Below, in pieces: positions 31,934-40,913 of a stretch of DNA of 49,842 nt. The translations under genes and the position numbers were made by a program. The DNA is from Sulfurospirillum sp. SCADC. Its GTDB lineage: Bacteria; Campylobacterota; Campylobacteria; Campylobacterales; Sulfurospirillaceae. Location: positions 52,148-101,989 of the forward strand of contig NZ_JQGK01000011.1 of NCBI RefSeq assembly GCF_000743525.1. The letters are read 5' to 3'. Position 1 is the stretch's first letter, and every line of letters starts with the position of its first letter. The notes beneath the pieces are model-generated. The model saw only the letters and a program-made list of their open reading frames with translations. It searched no databases and had not been told where the DNA came from.

Positions 31934-33910
31934 CTACATCTTTTTGAGCTTCTCGATTTGATCGCGTAGTTTTGCCGCTTTTTCAAACTCTAAAATCTTT
32001 GCCGCTTCGTGCATGGCTTTGGTCAGCTCCGTGATGATCTTCTTCTTTTCACTCGGTGGAATCTTCTCTTTTTTATCAAACGTGTTGTAGATGTCGGCAT
32101 GTTCTTCGAGTTTAAGATTTTCATCCATTTTGCGTGTCGTACTGGTGGGTGTGATGCCGTGTTCTTTATTGTAAGCTTCTTGAATCGCACGCCTTCTTAG
32201 CGTCGTCTCTATCGCTTTTTGCATCGAGTCGGTGATCTTTTCTGCAAACATGATGACTTTACCATTTAGATTTCGAGCCGCACGTCCCATCGTTTGAATG
32301 AGACTCGTTTCGGAACGTAAAAAACCCTCTTTATCGGCATCTAAAATGGCTACAAGGGAGACTTCTGGTAGGTCAAGTCCTTCACGAAGGAGGTTAATAC
32401 CCACAAGCACGTCAAATTCCCCAACACGCAAAGAGCGAATGATCTGGTTGCGCTCGATGGCGTCGATGTCGGAGTGCATGTATTTGATCTTGATGCCCAG
32501 ATCGGCGTAGTAGCGTGTGAGCTCTTCTGCCATCTTTTTAGTGAGCACGGTTACAAGCACTTTTTCATCTTTACATGTAACCTCTTTGATCTTGTCAAAA
32601 AGGGTTTCCACTTGGTTTTTACTGCTTAAGATTTCGACTTCAGGATCAAGCAGACCTGTCGGTCTTATGATCTGTTCAGCAGTGTTGTCACCACTAAGCT
32701 CTAGCTCCAACTCTTTGGGTGTCGCGCTGACAAAAAGGTAGCGTGGTGCTTTGTGGATGAACTCATCAAACATCAAAGGACGGTTATCAAGCGCACTGGG
32801 AAGCCTAAAACCGTACTCGACAAGCACTTCTTTACGACTGCGATCACCTGCGAACATACCCCGAAATTGCGGAAGACTGACATGGGATTCATCGACGATA
32901 ACCAGATACTCCTTATTCATCGCTTCAAAGTAGTCAAACAGCGAATAGGGCGTAGCCCCTGGCTCGATGCCAGTGAGGTAACGCGCATAGTTTTCAACGC
33001 CTTTACAAGCACCCGTAGAACCCAACATCTCAAGGTCAAACTCGACACGTTGTTTGAGGCGTTGGTACTCGACCAATTTGTCCTCTTTTTTGAAATATTC
33101 AAGCCGTTCACCTAACTCTTGTTCGATGGATTTGATCGCTTTTTGAAGCCTTTCGTGCCCGACGATAAACTGGTTTGCGGCGTAGATAACGACTTTATTG
33201 AGATGTTGCAGTTTTTTGTTGAGGAAGACCTCAAAATAGTTGATGCTTTCCACTTCATCACCAAAAAATTCAACACGAATCGCCTCTTCTTCACTGTAAG
33301 CGGGGTAAATGTCAATAACATCGCCACTGACTCTAAAACACCCACGGTCAAAAAAGGTGTCATTGCGTTTGTAGCCCATGTCCACAAGGCGCAAAAGAAG
33401 CTTCTTTTGGTTGATGGTATCGCCTTTTTCAATGACTTGTACCATCTCTTTGTATTCGCTCGGATCGCCCAATCCGTAGTTAGCCGAAACGGAAGCGACA
33501 CAGATGACATCATCAAAACTAAGTAAAGATGCGGTGGCACTAAGCCTCAAGCGTTCTAACTCTTCGTTGATGGAGCTGTCTTTTTCGATGAAAAGATCAC
33601 TGCGTGGAATGTACGCTTCAGGCTGATAGTAGTCGTAATAACTGATAAAATACTCCACATGATTTTTAGGGAAAAAGCCCTTAAATTCGCTGTAAAGTTG
33701 TGCCGCAAGGGTTTTGTTGTGCGTCATGATGAGGGTTGGCATCTTAAGTTTCTGGATGATCTGCGCCATCGTGTAGGTTTTACCACTTCCCGTCACGCCG
33801 ATGAGGGTTTGGTAACGACTTCCTTTTTTAATGGACGCAACAAGTTTATCGATGGCTTGCGGTTGATCGCCCGAGGGTTGATAGGGACTTTCTAAATAAA
33901 ATTCACTCAT
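31934..33910 (-). CDS. uvrB: Excinuclease ABC subunit UvrB
   Basis: Damage-verifying helicase-like core of nucleotide excision repair. The 658-residue product has Walker [16 protein letters not shown], the beta-hairpin region [18 protein letters not shown] that clamps [24 protein letters not shown], helicase motif [11 protein letters not shown] and a C-terminal UVR domain ([24 protein letters not shown]) for UvrA/UvrC contact. I chose ATG 33910 ([10 protein letters not shown]); 33928 (MGKV) is the alternative. A minus-strand TATAAT at 33941-33946 gives a short leader for either. Palindrome at 32571. Confidence 0.96.
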
Positions 33911-33940
33911 AGTTGATACTTTTCCCATTATTTTGTTACA

Positions 33941-33946
33941 ATTATA
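33941..33946 (-). promoter_or_regulatory. uvrB promoter -10 box
   Basis: Minus-strand TATAAT, about 31 bases before the ATG at 33910, in the divergent gap with the coiled-coil gene. Confidence 0.6.
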
Positions 33947-33976
33947 CCAAACAACGCTACACAAAAAGGCACTCGC

Positions 33977-34210
33977 ATGTTTGAAGAAGAGAGAAACATT
34001 AGCACATTAAGCCAAAAGATAACGGAACTTTTGGAAAAATACAAAGACCTTCAGGCTCAAAATGAAGCCTTGCGCCAAGAAGTTATCAAAGCTAAGGCAT
34101 TGGCGGAAGCTAAAAATGTGCAGATTGCCAAATTAGAGCAAGACTTAATCAATAAAGATGTTAATTCAGATGATCTTCTCAGTAAAATCGAAGCAGTGCT
34201 CGGTCGATGA
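33977..34210 (+). CDS. Small coiled-coil protein, possibly ZapB/TIGR02449-like
   Basis: Function unknown. The 77-residue product is a continuous heptad-repeat helix (about residues 8-60, [26 protein letters not shown]) ending SKIEAVLGR. Size, leucine/glutamine-rich heptads and the LLxR-type end resemble ZapB-like division proteins, but such low-complexity resemblance is weak. It overlaps the next small gene by four bases, a pairing like that of a TIGR02449-type protein with zapA in gammaproteobacteria. A uvrB-neighbouring pair of small proteins is also what I recall in Campylobacter. Confidence 0.7.
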
Positions 34211-34425
34211 GTAAAATAACCATCAGTCTTGGTGGCAAAGACTTTGACATCAAGCTAGAAGGTGCCTTTGCGCTGCAGTTTGAAGCCGACTTTAAAGAGC
34301 AATTTAAAGGCAAAAGCACGATCGATCCCAAAGAGTTACTCTACGCCTATGTCGGCAAATGCTACGATAATTTTATGCTAGAAGAGGAAGTTACCAAACT
34401 GTTACATCAAATGGACGAAATTTAA
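34207..34425 (+). CDS. Small conserved protein, possibly ZapA-like
   Basis: Function unknown. The 72-residue product starts with a beta-hairpin-like [18 protein letters not shown] and continues as helix with KELLYAYVGKCYDNFMLEEEV. The N-terminal strand-G-strand followed by a long helix recalls ZapA, which begins with a similar short strand pair and has a conserved (L)xxAxLxxxYEL-type helix. The start overlaps the coiled-coil gene (ATGA), so the proteins are probably made together in similar amounts. The pilin genes follow under their own promoter. Confidence 0.7.
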   Translation: MSKITISLGGKDFDIKLEGAFALQFEADFKEQFKGKSTIDPKELLYAYVGKCYDNFMLEEEVTKLLHQMDEI

Positions 34426-34454: not shown

Positions 34455-34505
34455 CGCTTCACGTGGTCAATAAGTGTATTGGCTAACACAAAACAAGGAG
34501 TTAAG

Positions 34506-35024
34506 ATGAAAAAAGGTTTCACGATGATCGAATTGATCTTCGTCATTGTTATTTTAGGTATTTTGGCAGCTGTGGCGATTCCAAGATTGGCAGCAACGAG
34601 AGATGATGCAAAAGCTGCAAGCATTAAGTCAGATGTTGGTACAGCACTTACTGCAATTCCTGCTTGGTATCAAGGTCAAAAGGATGTTCGTATTGCTCAA
34701 GCAATGCAAATTGATACAAGTAGTTGGACTAAAAATAGTGATGTTTCATATACATGGAAAGATGGAACTAACAATTGTATTACAATTGCTATCCATGATA
34801 TGAATCAAAGTTCAACAGATGGTACTTGGACTGATAATAACATAGCACTTTCAGGTACAGACTTTAATGCTTCAAATGGTGCTTGGTTATCTACTGCAAC
34901 TGGTTCTCCAACATTAAGAATCATCAAAGCAGGAACAACAGGTACAATTTGTTCAATGTTATGGAACGATATGGGTTTAACAGAACAAAATATTAGCATG
35001 GGTGGTCAAAAAGTCAAATGGTAA
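34506..35024 (+). CDS. Type II secretion/type IV pilus-like pseudopilin (first of a pair)
   Basis: Prepilin peptidase substrate. The 172-residue product has a short leader and the cleavage site MKKG/FTMIELIFVIVILGILAAVAIP with Glu at mature position 5, then a globular domain with DDAKAASIKSDVGTAL and two cysteines that could form a C-terminal disulfide loop. ATG 34506 is chosen for its AAGGAG site; the in-frame ATG at 34479 would put residues before the leader that lack the usual pattern. It ends overlapping the second pilin start. Likely role is in a transformation pilus or secretion pseudopilus, not proven here. Confidence 0.85.
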   Translation: MKKGFTMIELIFVIVILGILAAVAIPRLAATRDDAKAASIKSDVGTALTAIPAWYQGQKDVRIAQAMQIDTSSWTKNSDVSYTWKDGTNNCITIAIHDMNQSSTDGTWTDNNIALSGTDFNASNGAWLSTATGSPTLRIIKAGTTGTICSMLWNDMGLTEQNISMGGQKVKW

Positions 35025-35512
35025 TGAGTTCGAAAACTCACTATTCTAAGCAGAGCGGAATTCGCTCTGCTTTTACAATGGTAGAACTTGTTTTTGTTAT
35101 TGTTGTGCTTGGTATTCTTGCCGCTGTTGCAATACCAAAGCTTGCAGTTAGTCGTGATGATGCTGTAATGGTAAAAGGAAAATCTCAAGTTGCTGCAATT
35201 CGTAGTGGTATTTCTCTTTTAAGGTCTCAACGATTGCTAGAAGGTAATACAACAGCTATTTCCTCTCTTGACAACAATGCAAGCACATCAGAAGGTCAAA
35301 CACTTTTTTACGGTGCAACCGCAGGCAATATTTTAGAATATCCGCTTATTTCTAAAAATAGTGATGGTAACTGGATGAAAACAGGTGCAAATACGTATAA
35401 TTTTATCATCGGTGGTCAGGCAATCCCTTTTACGTACAATGCTACTACAGGCTTTACCTGTGATACAACCAATGCTTCAACGGGTGCAAATTGCAAAGCA
35501 TTAACTCAATAA
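35024..35512 (+). CDS. Type II secretion/type IV pilus-like pseudopilin (second of a pair)
   Basis: The 162-residue product has a longer basic leader and the site RSA/FTMVELVFVIVVLGILAAVAIP; the residue before the cut is Ala instead of the usual Gly, which peptidases tolerate in some cases but is worth noting. The next block KLAVSRDDAVMVKGKSQVAA resembles the first pilin, so the pair probably arose by tandem duplication. Two C-terminal cysteines (FTCDTT...GANCK) could form a small disulfide loop. Start 35024 overlaps the previous stop (TAATG); 35018 is also in frame. priA follows after four bases. Confidence 0.85.
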   Translation: MSSKTHYSKQSGIRSAFTMVELVFVIVVLGILAAVAIPKLAVSRDDAVMVKGKSQVAAIRSGISLLRSQRLLEGNTTAISSLDNNASTSEGQTLFYGATAGNILEYPLISKNSDGNWMKTGANTYNFIIGGQAIPFTYNATTGFTCDTTNASTGANCKALTQ

Positions 35513-35516
35513 ACGT

Positions 35517-37352
35517 GTGTTTTACTATCATATTGCTCTTTTAAAATCTCCTCTTTCGCCTTTAACCTATCAGTCTGAGGAAAACTTTCCTCTCGGTGCA
35601 GTGGTTGAAGTCACACTTTCAAAACGCACCATACAAGGTGTTGTGGTTGCTTCGGTTAAAAAACCTTCGTTTGAATGTGCGTCTATCTTGTTTACATGTA
35701 AAACATTTTACCCTCACAAAACACTTGAATTGGCTCGTTTTATTGCGGAGTATTATGTTTGTTCTCTTGGCGAAGCATTAAATCTTTTTGTTCCTCATTC
35801 TCCAAATGCTTTACATGTAAACGAAAAAAATACGACAGATATTACGCTTTCAACCGAACAAGAAAAGGCGTATGACTTCATACAAGTACATCCTACATCG
35901 CTTCTTTTTGGCGATACCGGAAGTGGCAAAACAGAGATTTATATGAAACTCTTTGAGCAGACCATCAACGAAGGCAAACAGGCGATTTTCTTGCTTCCTG
36001 AAATTGGTTTAACGCCTCAGATGAAAAATCGTTTGAAACATCATTTTGGAAAACATGTTGCTATTTGGCATTCTAAAATCACTGCGAAGAAAAAAGAACA
36101 GATACTCAGTGATATTCACGAGGGGAAAATTTCCATTATCGCGGGTACGCGTTCAGCGCTTTTCTTGCCGTTGCAACACTTAGGTTTGATCGTCGTGGAT
36201 GAAGAGCATGATGAAAGCTATAAGTCAGGAAATCGTCCTCGTTACAACGCTAAAGATTTGGCACTTCTTTTTGGTCAAAAACTGGGGTGTAAAGTGCTTT
36301 TAGGCTCCGCGACACCTACATTAACGAGTTTCTACAAAGTGCCAACCTTTAGGCTTAAGGGGACATTTTTTGAGTCACAAAGTTACATCATGTACGACGA
36401 TGGCGAGCATGGATTGAGCTTTAAGATGACCCAAGCGATCCAAAAAGCATTGAATGCACACAAGCAAGTCATCGTTTTTTTGCCGACACGCGCGAACTTT
36501 AAGTACATTACATGTAAACAATGTGGCGCCAATGTCGAGTGTCCGTTTTGCAGTGTGGGCATGAGCATTCACCACAATATGAATGCGCTGAAATGCCACT
36601 ACTGCAACTACACCGAAGTGATTCCCAAAGCCTGCCCCAAATGTGGATGCGAAGAGATCGTAGCAACGCGTATGGGAACGGCGGAAGTGAGTCAAAAACT
36701 AACAGAGCATTTTCATGAGCATGTGGTACAACAATTTGACCGCGATGAGGTGCGAACAGAGAAAAAACTCTCTGAAATTTTGAGCGATTTTAATGAGCAC
36801 AAGATCGACATTATGGTCGGCACACAGATGCTCAGCAAAGGGCATGATTACCACGGTGTGGGGCTTGCCGTCATTTTAGGTGTGGATGCACTGTTGGGAA
36901 TGAGTGATTTTAGATCGCGCGAAAAAACGCTTGCCTTGGTATTGCAAATCGCAGGGCGAGCAGGGCGAAAAGGGTATGGCGAAGTGCTGATTCAGAGTAA
37001 AAACAGCGAATTTTTTAAGCAGTATTTGGGTGATTTCGAGCAGTTTTTAAAGGATGAATTGGTGTTTCGAAAAGGGCTTTATCCGCCCTTTAAAAAAATG
37101 CTGAGGCTCATGAGCGCGCATGTCAAAGATGAAAAAGCCAAAGAACTGATCGATAAAGTAGCGCTCATCGCGCAACGTTTTCCACAGGTCGAGGTTGTGG
37201 GATTTGGCAAAGCCAACATCGCTAAAATTGCCAATAAATACCGCTATGAACTCCTTGCACGCAGTGATTCCAGCAAAGCCTTACTTGAGTTGGCCCATGC
37301 CGTTAAACTTTTACATGTAGAAGCTGACATCGATCCGTTATCCTTTTCTTAA
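35517..37352 (+). CDS. priA: Primosomal protein N' (replication restart helicase) PriA
   Basis: Reloads DnaB at repaired forks; DnaB is encoded 1.1 kb downstream. The 611-residue product has an N-terminal DNA-binding part, Walker A LLFGDTGSGKTEIYMKL, DEEH Walker B in LIVVDEEHDESYKSGNRPRYNA, the eight-cysteine zinc region (CKQCGANVECPFCSVG ... CHYCNYTEV ... CPKCGCEE) and motif VI QIAGRAGRKGYGEV. It is short relative to E. coli (732) because the N-terminal domain is reduced, as in Helicobacter. It starts with GTG. It has three perfect palindromes (35692, 35811, 36508) and a one-mismatch copy at 37311, the most of any gene here. Confidence 0.95.
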   Translation: MFYYHIALLKSPLSPLTYQSEENFPLGAVVEVTLSKRTIQGVVVASVKKPSFECASILFTCKTFYPHKTLELARFIAEYYVCSLGEALNLFVPHSPNALHVNEKNTTDITLSTEQEKAYDFIQVHPTSLLFGDTGSGKTEIYMKLFEQTINEGKQAIFLLPEIGLTPQMKNRLKHHFGKHVAIWHSKITAKKKEQILSDIHEGKISIIAGTRSALFLPLQHLGLIVVDEEHDESYKSGNRPRYNAKDLALLFGQKLGCKVLLGSATPTLTSFYKVPTFRLKGTFFESQSYIMYDDGEHGLSFKMTQAIQKALNAHKQVIVFLPTRANFKYITCKQCGANVECPFCSVGMSIHHNMNALKCHYCNYTEVIPKACPKCGCEEIVATRMGTAEVSQKLTEHFHEHVVQQFDRDEVRTEKKLSEILSDFNEHKIDIMVGTQMLSKGHDYHGVGLAVILGVDALLGMSDFRSREKTLALVLQIAGRAGRKGYGEVLIQSKNSEFFKQYLGDFEQFLKDELVFRKGLYPPFKKMLRLMSAHVKDEKAKELIDKVALIAQRFPQVEVVGFGKANIAKIANKYRYELLARSDSSKALLELAHAVKLLHVEADIDPLSFS

Positions 37353-37404: not shown

Positions 37405-38469
37405 ATGATCAAACGATACCCAACCAAACAAATTTTTGTTGGCAATGTGCCCATCGGTGGCAATGCTAAAATTCCTGTGCAGTCGATGACCTTTTCAAAA
37501 ACACACGATGTGGAAGCAACCGTGGAGCAAATTCGCCGTTTGCATTTTGCAGGAGCTGACATCGTGCGTTTAGCCGTACCCGATTATGACGATGCGCACG
37601 CACTTAAAGCGATTAAAGAGCGTTCCACGTTGCCTATCGTGGCGGACATTCATTTTAATTACCGTTTGGCATTGATCGCCGCGGAAGTGGTGGATTGTAT
37701 TCGCATCAATCCAGGTAACATTGGCAATAAAGAGCGCGTTAAAGAGGTCGTCAAAGCGTGCAACGAGCGCAATATCCCGATTCGCATTGGTGTGAACAGT
37801 GGAAGCTTGGAAAAAGAGTTCGATGAGAAGTATGGCCCTACGGCGAAAGGGATGGTCGAATCGGCGCTGTATAACATCAAATACCTTGAAGACCTTGGTT
37901 TTACGAACATGAAAGTCTCGCTAAAAGCGAGCGATGTGGAGCGCACTGTAGAAGCGTACCGCATGCTGCGCCCTTTGGTGGAGTACCCATTCCATCTTGG
38001 CGTTACGGAAGCAGGAACCTTGTTTCATTCAACGATTAAATCTTCCATTGCGTTAGGGTCACTTTTACTCGATGGCATTGGGGATACGATGCGTGTTTCC
38101 ATCACAGGAGAGCTTGAAGAAGAGATCAGAGTGGGACGCGCCATTTTAAAAGACAGTGGTGTGGAAGCGGAAGGTTTAAACATCATCTCATGCCCAACGT
38201 GCGGACGTTTGGAGGCCAATTTGGTCAATGCCGTAGCCGAAGTAGAACGTCGCACCAAACATATCAAAGCACCACTTAATATCTCGGTGATGGGATGCGT
38301 GGTCAATGCTATTGGCGAAGCCAAACATGCCGATGTCGCCATTGCCTTTGGCAAAGGGCAGGGGCTTGTGATGGTCAAAGGCGAAGTGGTTGCCAAACTC
38401 AAGGAAGAAGACCTCGTCGATAAATTTTTAGAAGCGGTTGAGCTTGCTGCCAAGGAGTACAAAGCATGA
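37405..38469 (+). CDS. ispG: 4-hydroxy-3-methylbut-2-enyl diphosphate synthase IspG (GcpE)
   Basis: Iron-sulfur enzyme of the MEP pathway converting MEcPP to HMBPP. The 354-residue product starts [26 protein letters not shown] and has TIM-barrel blocks ([34 protein letters not shown]) and the three cluster cysteines in SCPTCGR and [12 protein letters not shown]. It overlaps the dnaB start by four bases (ATGA). Length fits bacterial IspG without the plant insertion. Confidence 0.96.
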
Positions 38470-40913
38470 GCAATCTGCACAATGTGAACATAGAGCGCTC
38501 CGTTCTTAGCTCCATTTTATTTAACCCTGCAACGTTTGAAGATGTTGCGGCGGTCATTGGCGCGAAAGATTTTTACCTGCCAAGCCATCGGTATATTTAC
38601 GAAGCGATGGAGGCGTGCGAGAGGGAAGATCTGCCGATTGATGAGGAGTTCATCAAGAAAAAGCTCAACCAACAAGGGCGTTTTGATGAAGACGCGATGT
38701 TGGAGATTCTCTCGACCAATCCTCTGCCTGCGACGAAAGCGTATGTGGAAGAGATACGCGAAAAAGCGATCAAGCGAGAGTTGGTACAGCTGACCAGTGA
38801 CATCAAAGAGATCGCGGTTGAGAAAGATTTGCCTTCAACTGAAGTGGTCGATTTAGTGCAACAAAAGCTCTACCAGATCACGCAAGAGAGTGGCACCAAA
38901 GAGTTTCGTGAATCCCCTGAGATGACGCACGCGACTATCGCGCACATTCATGAAATGAAAAAGCGTGGCAATTCAGGCGTTGTTGGTGTGGACAGTGGTT
39001 TTGCTGAAATCAACCGTTTAACCTCAGGTTTTGGTGAAGGCGATCTCATCATCGTTGCGGCAAGACCGGCGATGGGTAAGTGTTTAGCCAAAGGTACGAA
39101 AGTGCTGATGTACGATGGTATTTTGAAAAATGTTGAAGATATTGAGGTGGGCGAGCTCTTGATGGGCGATGATTCAACGCCACGCAAAGTACTCTCTTTA
39201 GCACGTGGTAGAGAAAAAATGTACTGGGTGAGGCAAAATAAGGGGATCGATTATCGTGTGAATGAGTCGCACATTCTCTCCTTAAAACGTTCACGCAATG
39301 AAGGAAAGCATACGCATGGCGATGTTTTAAATATTTCGATTCGTGAGTATCTTGGCAAAAGTAAAAAATTTAAAAGCAACTATAAAGGCTACAAAGTTCC
39401 TGTCAAATTTATGGAAAAAGCGTTGGCGATTGAGCCTTATTTTTTAGGATTGTGGTTGGGGGATGGCAGGAAATCAGACGTGCGCATTGCGACGCAAGAT
39501 GAAGAAATTGTGGCGTATTTGAGTGACTATGCGACGCGCTTAGGATTCGGCGTGAGTCAATCCAAAGACGATGGAAAATGCCCAATGTACGCCATCGTCA
39601 ATGTTGACAACACCAAAAAAGAGAGTTTGCAAGCCACCATACGTCAACTGGGGCTCATTGAAAACAAGCATATCCCACAGGAGTATCTTGTCAATTCAAC
39701 GCGCAATCGTTTGGAACTTTTGGCAGGACTTTTGGACAGCGATGGTCACTATGATGCGCAGTGCAATGGTTATGAGATTACGCAAAAAGACGAGCACCTT
39801 GCTAGGCAGATTAAATTCTTAGCTGACACTTTGGGGTTTAGAACCTCATTGAAAGAAAAAGAGGCTACGATTGAACGCATAGGCTTTACATGTAAGGTGT
39901 ATCGCGTGCGAATTTTTGGCAATGTCGATACCATTCCTGTGAAAATTAAGCGCAAAATGGCTGAGCCATGGCGTGTAAAACGCAGTTGGAATCAAACAGG
40001 GATTCAGGTTGAATTTGATCAAGTCGATGACTATTACGGTTTTGAAATTGATGGCAATAGCCTCTTTTTGCTCGAAGATATGACTGTAACACACAATACG
40101 GCTTTTTGTTTGAATTTGGCGCAAAATGCGTTAGATCGTGGTAAAGGCGTTGCGATCTTTTCGCTTGAGATGCCAGCGGAGCAGTTGATGCTTAGGATGC
40201 TCAGTGCGAAGACGTCCATACCGCTTCAAAAGCTCAAAGTGGGCGATATGGGTGATGAGCAGTGGGGAAGACTCACGAGTGCTGCGGATGAGATGAGTAA
40301 ACGCAAATTTTTTGTGGATGATAACGGCTCTGTGGATATTCATAAAGTCAGAGCGAAGCTTCGCAAACTCAAATCGCAACACCCAGAAATTTCCATGGCG
40401 ATCATCGACTATTTGCAGTTGATGAGTTCGGCTGGAACGAGAGACAGACATATCGAAGTCAGTGACATCAGTCGTGGACTTAAACTGTTGGCGAGGGAGC
40501 TGAACATCCCTATCATCGCACTCTCTCAGCTTAACCGTGGGCTTGAAGCCAGAAGCGATAAACGCCCGATGCTGAGCGACCTTAGGGAATCAGGTGCGAT
40601 TGAGCAAGATGCCGACATGATCTTATTTGTCTACCGTGACGATGTTTACCGCATGCGTGAAGAGAAAGAGAAAGAGCAAAAAGCCAGAACTGAGGGTAAA
40701 GAGTACAAAAGTGACTTTTTTGAAAAACCAGAAGAGTCAGCCGAGGTTATTGTTGGAAAAAATAGAAATGGACCCGTTGGCGTGGCGAATTTGATTTTTC
40801 AAAAGGCGTGTACGCGCTTTGTGGATGGCGGTAAAAATTCTATTCCGATTGAAGTCGTCCAATACAATGCCTCGATTTCCCAAGAGGCGAAGATTAGCTT
40901 GCCTCCCTTGTAA
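38466..40913 (+). CDS. dnaB: Replicative DNA helicase DnaB with in-frame intein
   Basis: Hexameric replicative helicase interrupted by an intein. The 815-residue precursor is N-extein 1-205 (DnaB N-terminal domain, linker, then Walker A up to AARPAMGK), intein 206-544, and C-extein 545-815 starting [11 protein letters not shown]. Splicing would rebuild the P-loop GK-T and give a 476-residue DnaB, the normal size. The C-extein has [11 protein letters not shown], the Walker B-like [45 protein letters not shown] and an arginine-finger region. Without splicing the ATPase could not work, so the host depends on it. It overlaps ispG by four bases, with comEC three bases after it. Confidence 0.95.
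39081..40097 (+). mobile_element. DnaB intein with LAGLIDADG-type homing endonuclease
   Basis: 339 residues in frame within dnaB. The first residue is Cys ([13 protein letters not shown], block A), the block B histidine is in VNESHILSL (with Asn where Thr is common), and the C-terminal blocks are [22 protein letters not shown] with terminal His-Asn followed by a Thr extein nucleophile. Between them lie two dodecapeptide-type endonuclease motifs, FLGLWLGDG and [13 protein letters not shown], each with an acidic residue. It is inserted between Lys and Thr of the Walker A motif. One TTACATGTAA copy (39886, Phe-Thr-Cys-Lys) lies inside it. Confidence 0.93.

Follow-up and report, generated by a model that had tools for sequence, protein, structure and literature searches.

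P1 and P2, two small overlapping genes of Sulfurospirillum sp. SCADC in the stretch of 49,842 nucleotides analysed here (the window), probably form a diverged ZapB–ZapA module of the Campylobacterota that acts on FtsZ. The grounds of this reading are the genes themselves, their conservation, their pairing, their predicted folds and their profile matches; dimerisation of P2, its binding to FtsZ, the binding between P1 and P2 and the cross-linking are the parts of it that we infer.

First of all, both genes appear in the ORF list on the forward strand with an ATG start, P1 at 33977–34210 (77 aa) and P2 at 34207–34425 (72 aa), and the stop of P1 overlaps the start of P2 in the four bases ATGA at 34207–34210. 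An earlier sequence-only reading had reported a 77- and a 72-residue frame with a four-base overlap beside uvrB, and this is exact. The overlap suggests translational coupling of the two genes, and the same gap of −4 is found at most of the 55 distinct loci of the first set. The divergent conserved neighbour uvrB is on the reverse strand at 31934–33910; the ORF is listed as 31934–33964 with a TTG start, and the true start is probably the conserved ATG at 33910 (MSEFYLESP). Downstream of P2, on the forward strand, are two pilin-like genes (34479–35024 and 35018–35512), and behind them the conserved neighbour priA (35517–37352), an ispG-type gene and dnaB; uvrB, priA and ispG-type are names that we assume for these ORFs. 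The name priA for 35517–37352 is consistent with the available part of a paper on Cj0683 (PMC10046745). No cell-division gene was seen beside the pair. The DnaB helicase ORF of the window (38466–40913, forward strand) is interrupted by a sequence resembling an intein, in which Hint and homing-endonuclease domains were matched (Hom_end_hint 206–278, Hom_end 403–484, LAGLIDADG_3 416–486) and which, by reading, appears to sit in the ATP-binding motif. Ahead of P1, on the same strand, a consensus scan, and only this, marked a promoter-like site at 33913–33942 (TTGATA-18-TACAAT, with TG before the second hexamer), and the scan gave 3 sites in the region compared with 1.5 (sd 1.3) in shuffles. In comparison with six close relatives, the codon changes were 14–23 synonymous and 4–6 non-synonymous in P1, and 19–26 synonymous and 7–15 non-synonymous in P2. 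Since the changes are mostly synonymous and P2 homologs exist throughout the phylum, P1 and P2 are real genes and not a chance pair of ORFs.

P2 was found in 62 of 100 relatives by a single-sequence search, in 356 of 397 phylum genomes by a 47-row profile and in 368 of 394 by a wider 50-row profile, and both profiles reached 62 of 68 genera; there is mostly one match per genome, at a mostly conserved locus. In 26 of the 394 genomes no P2 match was obtained, and among those listed, 16 of 20 belong to one family (f14), which we take to be Helicobacteraceae. The carriers known by name (33 loci) include Sulfurospirillum diekertiae, S. cavolei, S. arcachonense, Campylobacter showae and C. gastrosuis. 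An ORF that reads as a coiled coil, typically of about 75 aa, was present upstream of P2 at all 55 distinct loci of the first set, this ORF being chosen by its Glu/Lys/Leu content; its end ranges from 11 bases within P2 to 32 bases ahead of the P2 start. The same was true of 32 of 39 further distinct P2 genes; the seven misses comprise three that start near the locus edge (L172, L169 and L128), two that were mis-started (L126, where P1 was recovered by BLAST, and L138) and two without an upstream coil within 60 bases of P2 (L116 and L135). The 98 distinct P2 loci compared include many short or incomplete ones; BLAST matched uvrB at 73 of them, priA at 67 and P1 at 73, and the pair often lies between divergent uvrB and priA. 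The order uvrB–P1–P2–pilin–priA is seen at the g28 loci L108 and L113, and at several f14 loci (L117, L120, L129, L131, L134, L136 and L139) priA comes after P2 with no pilin genes between them.

The AlphaFold2 model of P2, built from a 30-row alignment, has a pLDDT of 92.3 and a pTM of 0.67, and its layout (E2–8, E11–17, H19–32, H41–71), that is, strand–strand–helix–long helix, bears out the ZapA-like strand–helix layout that had been read from the letters and has the topology of the ZapA head, with a beta hairpin, a helix and a long helix. When the model was compared by Foldseek with 350,542 PDB chains, ZapA occupied ranks 1, 2, 3, 4, 6, 8 and 50 of the 50 best; the best match was the ZapA of G. 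stearothermophilus (E 0.23, prob 0.66), the chain 9isj came only at rank 50, and no match in the PDB fell below E 0.001. Structural re-alignment, which covered 559 of Foldseek's own top chains, placed six ZapA entries at ranks 1–6 of 559 with Z scores of 4.5, 4.4, 4.4, 4.4, 4.3 and 3.7, modest values within the range that the tool flags as possibly chance. These six alignments included 66–69 of the 72 residues of P2 with an rmsd of 3.2–4.3 Å and 6–17% identity, and the next chain reached Z 2.8 over 41 residues. The fold of P2 is judged ZapA-like because the top ranks all belong to one family, whose alignments are nearly complete, and the scores drop after it. The sequence-only reading had named predicted folds unlike ZapA and ZapB as an outcome that would speak against it; six ZapA structures rank first for P2, and P1 is predicted as a single helix of ZapB size. 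That P2 is a fold-level relative of ZapA with a ZapB-like partner is thus a modelled relationship well supported by computation.

The sequence relation is much fainter. Pfam ZapA (PF05164) gave no match to the P2 of the window and matched 7 of 47 P2 members (best 0.0015); DUF5595 matched 13 of the 47, in the window P2 only over residues 39–59. NCBIfam ZapA matched one member (0.053), and NCBIfam as a whole returned 20 families with at most 3 members each. Not one of the 394 phylum genomes contains a Pfam ZapA match over the curated cut-off, and no assignment of ZapA in the Campylobacterota was found in the open-licence literature, an absence that is no proof; both agree with the earlier remark that no ZapB–ZapA module is, to that reader's knowledge, assigned in the phylum. 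The matches below the cut-off listed for the 394 genomes number 109, with E up to 0.3, and nine of them cover at least 70 of the 88 profile positions, a line set after the list was seen. Seven of the nine lie in frames of at most 121 aa and are all P2 genes, identified from fetched loci (G277, G366, G247 and G361) or by coordinates (G065, G094 and G078), where chance overlaps with P2 were estimated at about 0.01; the remaining two are within longer frames (442 and 590 aa). Nine ZapA-profile matches were examined at their loci, and four were P2 genes and five were not. In the reverse direction, canonical ZapA ORFs scored E 2.4–6.5 with the P2 profile at five of six loci; among the matches listed there was none for the Neisseria locus.

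Profile–profile comparison, which had been proposed as a check, supported the relation in part: hhalign, run with the P2 family against seven ZapA sequences, gave a score of 20.4 (P 0.0012), above the maximum of 13.9 in 200 ZapA column shuffles and of 14.7 in 100 P2 shuffles, but with a probability of 20% and an alignment of 19 columns, the hairpin. We think that the sequence similarity between P2 and ZapA is very weak but not random. A search of the PDB with the P2 profile returned no ZapA, and the matches obtained there with the single P2 sequence (Cas10, Hsp70) and with the profile (Mcm5, annexins, carboxypeptidase) are chance only; therefore, sequence alone falls short of ZapA. Two further ZapA matches were rejected. 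Among the 100 relatives, one exceeded the ZapA cut-off (G066 contig C119, L071), with a canonical ZapA outside the P2 family, placed after a 394-aa coiled-coil ORF on a 9.8-kb contig and flanked by ORFs that we presume to be PheT-like and RNase Y-like; as a ZapA of the phylum it is probably contig contamination. The other, a sub-threshold match in G000, is spurious, with two internal stops and, by reading, an overlap with cytochrome-oxidase-like ORFs. Because it stays under the cut-off and has no tetramer coil, P2 is kept out of Pfam ZapA as a formal member; most likely it works like one.

With the ZapA structures of E. coli (4P1M), K. pneumoniae (9ISJ/9ISK), P. aeruginosa (1T3U/1W2E) and G. 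stearothermophilus (2MMV) as reference, P2 has in common with ZapA the strand–strand–helix–long helix head, the hairpin of the G-[KR]-x-[YF]-x-[IV] type and the conserved Ala early in the long helix, and its gene adjoins a small coiled-coil gene, which is also true of zapA in some lineages, among them that of the Neisseria record. It differs from ZapA in its place below the Pfam cut-off, in the low identity of the structural alignment given above and in the mostly Lys residues at positions 11, 42 and 51. The most evident difference from E. coli ZapA is at the C-terminus: the distance from the conserved Ala to the end has a median of 26 residues in P2 (95 members, 23–50) vs. 53 in E. coli ZapA, and 92 of the 95 aligned members are no longer than 35 residues from this Ala onward. 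The model aligns with residues 4–82 of 4P1M only, ending just before Ile83, and the C-terminal coiled coil of ZapA for the antiparallel tetramer is absent from the 72-aa P2. The P2 of G277 (L186, frame 1976–2267, family f11) is the best sub-threshold ZapA match in the 394 genomes; its frame of 97 aa continues at the C-terminus into an extension that resembles a coiled coil, and this P2 may be a variant with a longer coil. As for the contact residues, Asn60 of ZapA contacts FtsZ according to the accessible part of one study (PMC12754632); in a hand alignment, which is unsure at such low identity, P2 has no conserved Asn at the equivalent position, and Lys or Arg stands at the position equivalent to Arg46 in 47 of 95 members.

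P1 is predicted as one helix over residues 2–75 (pLDDT 90.4), in agreement with the coiled coil described earlier. The best Pfam match of the window P1 is ZapB (PF06005; E 6.6e-4, profile positions 7–70 of 71), with 20.5 bits, below the cut-off of 31.5. ZapB is also the Pfam family matched by most P1 members, namely 46 of the 47 aligned ones, the window P1 included (E up to 1, best 5.9e-8), followed by YabA (43 members, best 4.8e-4) and then by other coiled-coil families. Four selected relatives scored 33.5 (L055), 32.7 (L057), 31.2 (L129) and 28.9 bits (L053) against the same cut-off. Of five shuffles that preserved the heptads, two matched ZapB at 0.0052 and 0.1, two had no match at E up to 1, and for the fifth ZapB was outside the 25 best of 89 families (not better than 0.051). 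P1 thus resembles ZapB in being a single-helix coiled coil of about 75–80 aa with a near full-length profile match and at least two relatives over the cut-off, and differs in that the window member is below it. In addition, P1 is encoded beside a ZapA-like gene, whereas no zapB is annotated within 10 kb around E. coli K-12 zapA. In the Neisseria record, the ORF just upstream of the canonical zapA matches ZapB best (2e-5, over a part of 61 residues), so that the gene order there, a ZapB-like coil and then zapA, is that of P1/P2.

Searches with ZapB also lead to P2. In the genome of the window, P1 is the best of eight ZapB matches, and the sole match over the cut-off in 60 genomes is the P1 of G061. 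Sixteen matches in these 60 genomes have E <1e-4, and twelve of them are P1 genes, eight adjoining known P2 matches and four shown by fetched loci; three are not beside P2 (G006 twice and G035 C142), and the sixteenth is G050 C212. In a reciprocal test, five of seven examined ZapB matches lay directly 5′ of a P2 gene (G050, G055, G056, G063 and G064), and these five P2 genes, missed by the single-sequence search, had E values of 1.6e-17 to 5.6e-9 within their loci; the matches in G049 and G051 (C1:1062429) are other coiled coils in long frames with no P2 behind. In some Gammaproteobacteria, the coiled-coil family TIGR02449 is encoded upstream of zapA, and the module had been proposed as ZapB/TIGR02449–ZapA. 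The ZapA-like fold and the Pfam ZapB matches uphold the proposal, with Pfam ZapB fitting better than TIGR02449: P1 is like the latter family as a coiled coil of similar size, and 29 of 47 P1 members match it weakly (best 3.8e-4), but the window P1 scores 14.0 bits, far under the cut-off of 55.4.

As for the presumed target, genome searches show FtsZ in the genomes of the phylum. In G061, a second short ORF of the tubulin/FtsZ family (C1:228432–228917, a 197-aa frame, E 1.6e-20) lies beside a normal FtsZ. Among ten FtsZ N-terminal tails, with starts chosen by eye (L173, L174, L195–L200, L202 and L203, out of a set of 12 loci that also had L201 and L204), five read M-x-x-F-x-[IV]-E-E, two of these being identical and from Sulfurospirillum-type genomes; four others come close to this pattern, and one does not match it. 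The motif is possibly a docking motif, which is suggestive only. In E. coli and Klebsiella, according to the accessible parts of three papers, the dimer heads of ZapA bind the N-terminal tail of FtsZ, and the C-terminal coils join the heads into tetramers (PMC12216130, PMC7246612, PMC12754632). The non-tetramerising I83E dimer of E. coli ZapA fails to complement, as stated in one of these parts (PMC7246612); therefore, a ZapA without the coil needs another cross-linker. P2 would accordingly be read as the ZapA-like head, which may dimerise and bind FtsZ filaments, probably including the N-terminal tail, and P1 as the ZapB-like coiled coil that would bind P2 and, by cross-linking or clustering the heads on FtsZ, make the Z ring compact. 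P2 stops at the point where E. coli ZapA goes on into the helix that forms the tetramer, so that a complex of P2 with P1, and not a tetramer of P2, would probably do the bundling. A tentative extension, which we hold to be possible and less than likely, is a "split" ZapA across the phylum, in which the head has no tetramer coil, the cross-linking is shifted to the co-encoded ZapB-like partner, and the head thereby becomes essential in some species (Cj0682). In E. coli, ZapA is dispensable. The arrangement is like that of ZapA–ZauP in Caulobacter, where, in the excerpt available, ZapA has a partner seen as the functional counterpart of ZapB (PMC7188993); the likeness to ZauP is by description only, and the Caulobacter ZapA is longer than P2, its deletion allele spanning residues 4–105.

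By locus order, and not by the NCTC 11168 sequence, P1 would correspond to Cj0681 and P2 to Cj0682. The consulted part of a TraDIS study lists Cj0682 as essential in C. jejuni and C. coli, not in C. lari, with "no functional domains predicted" (PMC10077673), and Cj0681 appears as a hypothetical protein in the table of a secretion screen, again from the portion available (PMC2764114). Cj0683 is described, in the accessible text, as a competence protein of C. jejuni that has a pilin-type motif and whose gene belongs to an operon preceding priA (PMC10046745), and its position is the place of the pilin-like genes of the window. The accessible text of a paper on H. pylori MinC mentions ZapA for E. 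coli only.

These neighbours raise the explanation that P1/P2 serve DNA uptake or replication restart together with uvrB, the pseudopilins and priA, that is, competence or DNA repair, the ZapA-like fold being coincidental. The frequency of uvrB (73/98) and priA (67/98) at P2 loci, often with pilin-like genes, and the operon of the competence gene cj0683 ahead of priA fit it; the f14 loci where priA follows P2 without pilins do not, nor do the ZapA matches of P2 and the ZapB matches of P1. Moreover, a competence role would not predict that Cj0682 is essential, as the part of the TraDIS study at hand has it (PMC10077673), and E. coli K-12 zapA, too, sits among non-division genes, so this explanation seems quite improbable. 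It is likewise improbable that the ZapA-like fold does another job, with P1–P2 as a small scaffold for a non-FtsZ polymer or machine. In P2, the residues with which E. coli ZapA contacts FtsZ show no clear conservation and the tetramer coil is missing, which would suit such a scaffold; however, P2 is kept in 368 of 394 genomes, and the FtsZ tail motif is compatible with a kept tail-binding partner, without being proof of one. The small, overlapping, two-gene layout could also recall a toxin–antitoxin or mobile pair, yet the pair is phylum-wide, its locus is mostly conserved and most genomes have a single match, and the P1 and P2 of the window matched no such family among the general protein-family profiles searched; this origin is already disfavoured and has very little probability.

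Although the Campylobacterota, Campylobacter and Helicobacter among them, have FtsZ, searches with the curated profile yield no ZapA for them. As a diverged ZapA, the candidate P2, which nearly every sampled genome carries and whose locus is mostly the same, would close this gap of the phylum and would supply a function for the hypothetical protein Cj0682, reported as essential. It would also provide a test of whether the Z ring must be cross-linked by tetrameric ZapA or whether a partner coil can take over this task.
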